The position numbers and the translations under genes were made by a program. Shown one piece after another: positions 32,509-43,467 of a stretch of 64,000 nucleotides of DNA; position 1 is the first letter of the stretch, and each line of letters starts with the position of its first letter. Origin of the DNA: Kaistia sp. 32K (GTDB lineage: Bacteria > Pseudomonadota > Alphaproteobacteria > Rhizobiales > Kaistiaceae); the NCBI RefSeq assembly GCF_016629525.1, contig NZ_AP024269.1, positions 4,228,001 to 4,292,000 on the forward strand. Direction: 5' to 3'. The notes under the pieces were generated by a model, which saw only the letters and a program-made list of their open reading frames with translations, did not search any database and had not been told where the DNA came from.

Positions 32509-32662
32509 CCGCCAAATTCTCGCGAAGAGGTCTCCTCTGAGCCGCCGACCGGGGCCCGACCCCGGAGGTCAACGTCCGCCAGCGCGTCGCGCCCGCGGGC
32601 GCTGAACGTCTTTGGAAAAACGGCGGATCGGAAGCGATCCCTTCGAGGAAGAGCGGAACCGA

Positions 32663-42186: not shown

Positions 42187-42255
42187 TCCTGCAACGCCGC
42201 CGATTGAGGCACCGCCCACGCCCCACCCTCGCCGTCATCCCGGCCTCCGAGCCGG
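42187..42255. repeat. Type C repeat, left part of the copy split by IS110
   Basis: This stretch, ending in CATCCCGGCCTCCGAGCCGG, matches 43509-43577 with few differences. The rest of the same unit resumes at 43361 on the far side of the insertion. Confidence 0.85.
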
Positions 42256-42266
42256 CAACTGTGTCG

Positions 42267-43196
42267 TCACGGGTTGAATGCGACGCGTTGCCGGAGCATG
42301 GCGTTGGCGATGACGAGGATCTTTCTGGCGATGGCGATGAGGGCGACCTTGGGTGACTTTCCGGCGTTGGTCATGCGTCGGTAGGCATCCGAGAAGCGTG
42401 GCTCGATCCGGGCGGCGCAGACGGCGGCCATGTAGAGGGCCTCGCGGACACGCCGTCGTCCGCCGTGGATGCGGCGGCTGCCGCGGAACTGGCCACTGTC
42501 GACATTGTAGGGCGCCAGGCCGGCCAGGGCAGCGATGGTCTTGGGCGAGCGCTGGCCGAGTTCGGGCAAAAGGGCGATCAGCGTGACGCTGGCGACGGGG
42601 CCGACGCCAGGGATTGAGCGCAGCCACCGTTCGGCTTCGGCGAGATCGGCCGAGGCCTGGATGCAGGCCTGGATGGTACGCTCCAGCGCGGCGATCCGAA
42701 GGTCGAGCCAGGCAAGGGTCTCGCGGATGTCGCCGGCGATCTCGTCGGTGCATCCTTGCTGGCGGGTGCGTTCCTGCTTGCGCATGGCGACGAGCTGGTC
42801 GCGGCGCTTGTGCAGCTCCGCTAGGCGGTCGCGCTCCGGGGAACGCGGCTGACGGGTCGCGGGACGGAGCGTCTGGGCCATGGCGGCGAGCCTGCGCGCG
42901 TCGATCCGGTCGGTCTTGGCGAGAATGCCGGTGGCGCGGGCGAAGTCACGCGCCCGGGCCGGATTGACGCGGACGAAGGCGATGCCGGCCTTGGTCAGGG
43001 CCTGGGCGAGGACCCGGTCGTAGGGACCCGTCGCCTCGAACACGACGAGAACATCGGTACCGCGCCAAGGCTCGAGCCGTTGCGCGATCGCCTCGGCCTG
43101 ATTGGCGATGCGCTCGGCCACGCCGACGGCGCCGTCGAACAGATCCAGATGCGCTTTGGAGATGTCGCAACCGACAAAGCCAGGGTGTATCTTCAT
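42267..43196 (-). CDS. IS110-family transposase (DEDD recombinase)
   Basis: 309 residues. The RuvC-like DEDD domain shows Asp11 (VGCDISKAHLDLF), Glu54 (VVFEATGPYD), Asp96 and Asp99 (KTDRIDARRLA). The C-terminal Transposase_20 domain contains WLRSIPGVGPVASVTLIALL and GLAPYNVDSGQFRGSRRIHGGRRRVREALYMAA, in which Ser234 fits the catalytic serine by spacing. The frame is intact and the length normal, so it may be active. IS110 recombinases act with a bridge RNA encoded in the element's non-coding end, here at 43197-43360. Confidence 0.95.
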   Translation of the reverse strand: MKIHPGFVGCDISKAHLDLFDGAVGVAERIANQAEAIAQRLEPWRGTDVLVVFEATGPYDRVLAQALTKAGIAFVRVNPARARDFARATGILAKTDRIDARRLAAMAQTLRPATRQPRSPERDRLAELHKRRDQLVAMRKQERTRQQGCTDEIAGDIRETLAWLDLRIAALERTIQACIQASADLAEAERWLRSIPGVGPVASVTLIALLPELGQRSPKTIAALAGLAPYNVDSGQFRGSRRIHGGRRRVREALYMAAVCAARIEPRFSDAYRRMTNAGKSPKVALIAIARKILVIANAMLRQRVAFNP

Positions 43197-43360
43197 GCTG
43201 CCTATCCCTGTGCTGCGAGGTCCGTCACAGCGGCCTCGATCAACTGTTCAGGCTGGGTATCGAAGCAGGCGGACGAGGACCGGGCCGGCTCACGGTCTCG
43301 AAGACCTGGGATCCAACGATCTCTCGTCCGCCACCCATCCTCGCACAGCTCCAACACACA
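43197..43360 (-). ncRNA. Predicted IS110 bridge RNA
   Basis: Read on the minus strand, GGCGGACGAG (43332-43323) and CTCGTCCGCC (43277-43268) form a perfect 10-bp stem. Its loop holds TGGATCCC (43315-43308), the hairpin GGTCT-TCG-AGACC, and GAGCCGG (43291-43285). TGGATCCC equals the left target flank plus core; GAGCCGG is complementary to core plus right flank. Downstream, ACAGTTG (43247-43241) equals the last seven bases of the element's far end, and CACAGG (43212-43207) is complementary to core plus its first four bases. This is the guide layout described for IS621 bridge RNA. The donor-loop fold is less clear. Confidence 0.7.
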
Positions 43361-43467
43361 GGGATCCATTCAGCCGAGGCATCGGGAGGCTCGCACGCCC
43401 TGCGGCGCGGCTGTATGGATCCCTGCTCGCAGGGATGACGGGGAGTGGGTGGGACCGTCGAGCTAGG
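43361..43467. repeat. Type C repeat, right part of the copy split by IS110
   Basis: It continues the unit interrupted at 42255: GGGATCCATTCAGCCGAG, a variable centre, then TATGGATCCCTGCTCGCAGG and GATGACGG. It is the right flank of the element. Confidence 0.85.

Follow-up and report, generated by a model that had tools for sequence, protein, structure and literature searches.

The 164 non-coding nucleotides at the left end of an insertion sequence in Kaistia sp. 32K (43197..43360, minus strand, of the window, which denotes the whole 64,000-nucleotide stretch of contig NZ_AP024269.1 that was analyzed) are almost certainly the bridge RNA gene of an IS110-group element that acts by the guide mechanism proposed below. 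This assignment, made in a preliminary description from the letters of the DNA, is supported by an IS110 recombinase, a REP sequence that is rebuilt when the flanks are joined, loops that follow their targets and a conserved layout. The mechanism as such has already been published, and the element adds to it a clear new case, a further member of the IS110 group that differs at the sequence level. It provides a natural case in which target loops differ with the insertion sites across alphaproteobacterial relatives and the donor loop hardly changes. Its CC core, its shortened left donor guide and a link to the RNA family sX15 are the parts worth the attention of specialists.

The element without its core occupies positions 43360-42256 of the minus strand (42256..43360) and comprises 1105 bp between two copies of the core CC, or 1107 bp with one core copy. 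Its ends are fixed by the CC on each side, the left copy (43361..43362) being the end of the left target and the right copy lying at 42254..42255. As is typical of the IS110 group, insertion took place at a short core and duplicated nothing further of the target. The recombinase gene (42267..43196, minus strand) encodes 309 amino acids and is flanked by 164 non-coding nucleotides upstream and 11 nucleotides downstream, which are followed by the core. Its product contains the DEDD/serine recombinase domains PF01548 (E 4.2e-16) and PF02371 (E 6.6e-20) and matches the solved structures of IS621 (chain 8wt6, E 2.9e-31) and ISCro4 (chain 9t56, E 5.5e-31). The five catalytic residues reported for IS621 (PMC11208158) have their counterparts by motif position in D11, E54, D96, D99 and S234; D11 was assigned by position alone, the alignment to the IS621 and ISCro4 chains starting at residue 47. 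Membership of the element in the IS110 group is secure.

The insertion site is a REP. Joining the flanks by script yields a REP-like sequence that agrees with the intact REP next to it at 101 of 132 ungapped positions, and the two share 46 consecutive identical bases (counted by eye) spanning the insertion point. The inverted repeat of the REP reads ATCCCGGC / GCCGGGAT, and the element is inserted within its first arm, between the left target TGGATC (43363..43368, minus strand) and the right target GGCTC (42249..42253, minus strand), the extent of the latter being set by guide-target covariation, which ends beyond +5. The 13-bp REP target motif TGGATCCCGGCTC has 45 occurrences in the genome and the same pattern read backwards has none. 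A search for the leuD neighbourhood in 14 genomes of the genus, the Kaistia sp. 32K genome included, gave strong matches in 12 others (L124 to L135) and only weak ones in G007. Inspection by eye of the 470 nt beyond the end of leuD in the 12 genomes revealed no IS110 end, and in 7 of the 12 (L129 to L135) the sequence after leuD differs from the intergenic stretch of the window. REP-like palindromes without the element were seen by eye downstream of leuD in some species of the genus, for instance L126, L127 and L128.

All parts of the RNA described here are encoded on the minus strand. The perfect 10-bp stem pointed out in the preliminary description is present exactly as given, positions 43332-43323 pairing with 43277-43268, and its two arms (5' arm 43323..43332, 3' arm 43268..43277) enclose the target loop. 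Within this loop lie the left target guide (LTG) TGGATCCC (43308..43315), a small hairpin (helix 2, 43294..43306) and the right target guide (RTG) GAGCCGG (43285..43291). The LTG is identical to the six bases left of the core together with the CC core (43368-43361), and the RTG is the reverse complement of the core plus GGCTC (42255-42249). The donor loop is closed by a short stem (helix 3) made of CCU (43250..43252) and AGG (43201..43203). It carries the left donor guide (LDG) ACAGTTG (43241..43247), a second hairpin (helix 4, 43216..43238) and the right donor guide (RDG) CACAGG (43207..43212). The LDG equals the far end of the element, the left donor (LD) ACAGTTG (42256..42262) within the 11-nt right end, and the RDG is the reverse complement of the core plus TGTG (43362-43357). 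All four matches were thus correctly read in the preliminary description.

A chance origin of these matches was rejected on the basis of 5000 dinucleotide shuffles of the 164-nt left end, along with the guide-target pairing test described below. Single matches recur in the shuffles (LTG 26, RTG 295, LDG 45 and RDG 134 times per 5000), ordered matches of the two target guides once, and ordered matches of the two donor guides or of all four guides never. The earlier argument that four independent matches in the right order are hard to explain by chance was sound with respect to chance and too strong with respect to independence: close relatives have almost the same donor matches, which are therefore weaker independent evidence than the varying target matches.

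Relatives of the recombinase were sought at several thresholds. Of 8,000 candidate proteins that were scored, 4,659 match at E up to 1e-30. With the own genome counted, relatives were detected at E up to 1e-60 in 12 of 397 genomes of the order and at E up to 1e-65 in 2 of 385 genomes of the class; at 1e-70 they occur in 1 of 18 and 1 of 11 genomes of two families, and at 1e-72 in 2 of 87 and 6 of 397 genomes of two further families. Named relatives include those of Parvibaculum, Tardiphaga and Labrys as well as those on plasmids of Sinorhizobium and Agrobacterium, and the viral contigs searched contain none. In the 5.35-Mb genome itself the element is the sole full-length match, accompanied by one additional match of 33 bp, and a domain search returned a single DEDD_Tnp_IS110 match, that of this element. 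It is conceivable, if unlikely, that the bridge RNA is functional in the relatives and that the single copy found here has lost its mobility and is a fossil. One copy beside 45 exact target motifs would fit such a state, as would the genus search, in which 12 of the 13 other genomes have no match and one (G003) has six partial matches with 47-49% identity. Against it stand the intact 309-aa frame with its motif residues, the perfect stem, target guides that fit the present site and clean ends, and the absence from the other species searched is also in keeping with a recent arrival.

The central evidence for a guide function comes from comparison of target loops with insertion sites. Relatives were drawn from genome contigs, genomes and plasmids, and 60 loci gave 57 elements with 28 distinct bridge RNAs. 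The loci L035 and L084, in which the search for a left donor guide was negative, and L080, for which the pattern gave no left boundary, were dropped, and L043, L044, L048 to L072, L074 and L075 lie outside the bridge RNA comparison. Through the use of two collections, at least 6 of the 57 loci come from genomes already represented, namely five Labrys copies and one Beijerinckiaceae copy (identical flanks). Six of the 28 bridge RNAs were left out of the pairing test: L047, L073 and L082 have poly-C loops that are unalignable, L083 and L085 have a CT core, and the left flank of L117 ends at a contig end, its right flank being usable. The left boundary of L115 was moved by one base by hand. The test of the right target covers 14 of 17 target-loop types, the pattern having yielded no right flank for L045, L081 and L104.

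Across the 17 types, an average of 5.588 of 6 non-core positions agree between the LTG and the target that belongs to it, compared to 3.569 with shuffled targets, and none of 20,000 shufflings, which leave the relatedness of the types in place, scored as high. For the RTG (14 types) the agreement is 4.179 of 5, compared to 2.750 when shuffled, again with 0 of 20,000 as high. Position by position, the agreement is higher than under shuffling at -6, -3, -2, -1, +1, +3, +4 and +5 (at most 6 of 2000). There is little variation at -5 and -4 (115 and 114 of 2000) and none at +2, and at +6 and +7 the guide-target covariation is no better than shuffling. From this position-wise covariation it follows that the guides read at least 6 + 2 and 2 + 5 bases (scored from -6). 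Examples of loops and their left targets are TGGATCCC in the window, TGGGTCCC in Parvibaculum, GTGCACCC in Labrys and AGCAATCC in L101, and a Sinorhizobium loop reads CGGAATCC for GGAATCC sites. The donor loop is nearly fixed across the types, and since types with nearly one donor loop have different targets, the covariation is not explained by ancestry alone. On the donor side, joint changes of guide and end are confined to outgroups: the LDG and the LD both read ATGGTTG in L083, and in L085 the two read ACGGTTG, compared to ACAGTTG elsewhere, and in L101 a right donor TATG accompanies an RDG CATA.

The preliminary description had named identical loops at unrelated targets as the observation that would speak against it. 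Overall such a pattern was not found, and poor fits are confined to a few single sites: L038 matches at 3 of 6 left positions, L103 at 4 of 6 positions on the left and 1 of 5 on the right, and L119 at 3 of 6 left positions as bounded. The right flanks of Labrys elements have 3 of 5 matches at four of five sites. The poorly matching sites may be off-target insertions or rearranged copies, the former being a possibility for L038 and L103 in particular. The right end of L104, ACCGTTG, is one base off its LDG and was not caught by the pattern search.

Conservation of the RNA structure was assessed in an alignment of 21 of the 28 bridge RNAs, the left end of the window and 20 others; L047, L073, L082, L083 and L085 and the near-duplicates L106 and L122 were left out. 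The layout, the absence of which in close homologues, like that of the 10-bp stem, had also been put forward as counterevidence, is retained in all 21 left ends. In the four helices as drawn, 91.2% of the cells are paired, compared to 35.5 to 44.6% when the helices are slid, and 10 of 26 pairs have changed on both sides, compared to 2 to 6 when slid. One of five pair measures, the number of further pair types, was no better than shuffled (164 of 500). The covariation stems mainly from the target-loop stem, in which 6 of the 9 pairs counted in the alignment have changed on both sides, and from its hairpin, helix 2, with 3 of 5 such pairs and an innermost pair that is broken in 13 of 21 rows. 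Helix 4 is paired in 97.0% of its cells, with 1 of 8 pairs changed on both sides. Of the four pairs that close the donor loop, three never vary and hence show no covariation; the outermost pair is disrupted in 19 of 21 rows.

A consensus fold, made independently of the drawn helices, recovers them minus two outer or inner pairs. It contains 37 pairs, 12 of them changed on both sides, and includes extra pairs within both loops. Some of these connect columns of the left guide with columns of the right guide, so that the open loop is an interpretation. Folding of the single sequence was discarded as proof of a bridge RNA because it is too weak: the fold energy departs only mildly from expectation (z -2.06, with 5 of 200 shuffled sequences folding equally well), and the minimum-energy fold lacks the donor loop as drawn.

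These data bear on the idea that the recombinase recognizes the REP by protein-DNA contact or by DNA folding and that the matches in the left end are remnants of target capture or ancestry. Other IS families, for example members of IS3 and IS4, also insert in REP palindromes (PMC1525189), and the letters of the donor loop, which hardly vary in the close lineage, would by themselves be compatible with ancestry. This alternative is nevertheless very improbable, given that the letters of the target loop track left targets as different as TGGATCCC, GTGCACCC, AGCAATCC and GGAATCC, doing so at defined positions on each of the two strands, and that the helices are preserved through two-sided changes.

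The closest known system is IS621 of E. coli. As described in PMC11208160 and PMC11208158, it has in common with the present element an IS110 recombinase, a left end that encodes a bridge RNA, four guides distributed over two loops, a core within both target guides, handshake bases, a REP target and a short subterminal repeat. Junction promoter boxes would be a further likeness, those of the present element being candidates picked by eye and with no control. The two elements differ in the core, which is CC here and CT in IS621, and in the LTG, which covers six target bases plus the core here (scored from -6), whereas that of IS621 has 9 nt, that is, seven plus the core. The RTG reads the core plus five bases, compared to 4 nt in IS621, longer ones having been reported in IS621 orthologues, and the RDG is taken as six contiguous bases here and is discontiguous in IS621. 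ISCro4 (PDB 9t56), compared at the protein level, has a homologous recombinase. With respect to target type, the element resembles ISRm19 of Sinorhizobium meliloti, ISPpu9, ISPpu10 and further IS110 elements that split REPs (PMC1525189). ISEc21 and the IS1111-type elements with their seekRNAs likewise select the target with an RNA from a non-coding region; ISEc21 belongs to a different IS110 cluster and has a longer protein, and in IS1111 types the RNA is usually downstream of the gene with a reversed guide order (PMC11187229). That the element is itself of the IS1111 group, with a seekRNA in its right end, is extremely improbable: the superfamily is the same and the IS1111 member ISPa11 also targets REPs (PMC11187229), yet the long non-coding end lies upstream of the gene (164 nt vs 11 nt), the subterminal repeat is short and not of 7-17 bp, the matches fall within the left end, the left guide preceding the right one, and an 11-nt right end is too small for a guide-bearing RNA.

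For IS621, all four guide pairings are stated to include the core, a property that was not used here to judge membership in the IS110 group. In the present element the core takes part in the pairings of the LTG, RTG and RDG, and in the LDG an A stands opposite the core. The preliminary description had marked the premature end of the LDG match as a point to examine, and it is real: the eighth LDG position (43240..43240, minus strand) is A and not the core C, as in 16 of the 28 distinct bridge RNAs (window included), the other 12 having C. The IS621 LDG pairs eight bases, seven of the donor and the first of the core (PMC11208158). The gap is partly expected, since only the first core base is paired in IS621, and here even that base is unmatched. 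On a quick protein tree of 26 rows with several unsupported forks, two changes are needed to account for the state of this position. Cores were scored in 54 two-ended elements; CC was found at both ends in 47, among them L115 with its shifted boundary, and CT at both ends in 6 (from two outgroup genomes), and the last, L047, has CC at both ends with its right end correctly set. The element L145 combines a CT core with an A at LDG position 8 (by eye), so that the missing LDG core match is not tied to the CC core. A protein signature of the CC core beside the EATG motif was sought and abandoned, because the residues vary and give no clean rule.

The second core T is described as almost invariant in IS621 and its orthologues (PMC11208158), and AT, GT and TT cores have been tested (PMC11208160). 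For this reason a CC core is useful for tests of core rules, and together with the shortened LDG it represents a natural variant for this purpose. The highly conserved CT is a property of IS621 and its orthologues rather than of the IS110 group at large. The lineage may follow a core rule of its own, in which CC replaces CT and only a single donor guide reads the core on the donor side.

In IS621, bases that follow each right guide pair with the other DNA after strand exchange (PMC11208158). The corresponding handshake bases in the window are a C in the target loop (43284..43284, minus strand), which faces the donor G before the core and is C in 28 of 28 rows, and GA in the donor loop (43205..43206, minus strand), which faces, and can pair with, the last two bases of the left target (C and T). 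In an uncontrolled count, pairing of the donor-loop base with target position 7 is possible in 17 of 17 types (13 by Watson-Crick pairing on the main target, 4 by G-U only), with A instead of G in three types that have a target T. At handshake position 6, 12 of 17 types can pair at one site at least, likewise in an uncontrolled count. The outer pair of the short subterminal repeat (2-3 bp) is C-G in 16, T-A in 4 and unpaired in 3 of 23 elements. Were LD joined to the right donor side (RD) TGTGTGTTGG (43351..43360, minus strand), the circle junction would bring TTGCCT, a 17-nt spacer and the left-end hexamer GAGGAT together. Behind a TTGC-type box and a 17-nt spacer, the predicted junction of 20 of 25 elements has a -10-like hexamer with A at position 2 and T at position 6 (by eye, with no control). 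A sigma-70 promoter scan of the integrated copy returned none that passes, which is expected if, as we infer, the promoter exists only in the circle.

Onto the observed anatomy, enzyme family, conserved helices and guide-target covariation, the steps of circle formation, transcription from the circle, RNA-protein binding and catalysis with strand exchange can be transferred by analogy with IS621. In the most likely course of events, the ends of the element would be joined in a circle upon excision, and a -35-like box of the right end and a -10-like box of the left end would meet across the CC. The circle would then transcribe the 164-nt left end, and the RNA would be bound by the recombinase. 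Its first loop is predicted to read the REP, where the LTG would pair with TGGATC-CC on the bottom strand and the RTG with CC-GGCTC on the top strand, and its second loop would read the joined ends of the element itself. A recombinase tetramer would exchange strands at the CC core, and the element would enter one arm of the REP hairpin in a single orientation, with a duplication limited to the core.

No bridge RNA family reaches the Rfam gathering score in the window; the sole match at this level is an ffh sRNA elsewhere (RF01793, window 32558-32609, plus strand, 53.6 bits). A permissive Rfam search of the region returned a single match, RF02234 sX15, at window positions 43183-43345 on the plus strand, with 31 bits (E 0.0015 for 321 bases), below the gathering score of 55. 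The family is named as an sRNA of Xanthomonadaceae, and sX15 was reportedly described in Xanthomonas by Schmidtke et al. 2012. In related loci, sX15 matches were found in 10 of 17 at E up to 10 (3 below 0.01) and in 7 of 17 there was none; all matches in the 10 loci lie at the left end, antisense to the bridge RNA, and none exceeds the gathering score. Among 398 genomes of the phylum, 5 contain a total of 13 matches with E no greater than 0.001, and one of these matches is above the gathering score (L143, 120.2 bits). In L143, L145, L146, L149 and L151 an IS110 recombinase starts beside the sX15 match in the opposite reading direction, the open frame in L143 being only 180 aa long. L147 is cut by a contig end and has an IS110-like start by eye that tblastn did not find, and in G1543 a distance of 5 bases separates the seven matches from contig ends.

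The RF02234 sX15 family may be either a mis-oriented bridge RNA or a real antisense RNA. PMC3771888 cites Schmidtke et al. 2012 for 24 Xanthomonas sRNAs and a table in PMC6337395 names sX15 among Rfam hits; among the matches listed in the literature search, no title or abstract opening mentions a link between sX15 and IS110. From the position of the matches one might speculate that IS110 left ends are also read on the other strand and that sX15, as an antisense RNA covering the bridge RNA, could switch it off, a rather improbable scenario at present. If the strand of sX15 is right, the link would add antisense control to the IS110 family.

L047 (1275-1326, 2431-2534) is an element inside the bridge RNA of a sibling, in a poly-C stretch where the LTG would lie; its left flank aligns with the first 52 nt of its own bridge RNA and its right flank with the remainder. 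The DNA copy of a guide is itself half a target. In the window, the DNA of the bridge RNA continues after the LTG with AGGTC (43307-43303, minus strand) and not with GGCTC, and as the right half-site is absent, self-insertion should be disfavoured. A partial left end of about 52 nt that ends at the LTG lies just upstream of a full Labrys element in L037 (the site of L087), which suggests insertion into, or recombination with, a resident copy.
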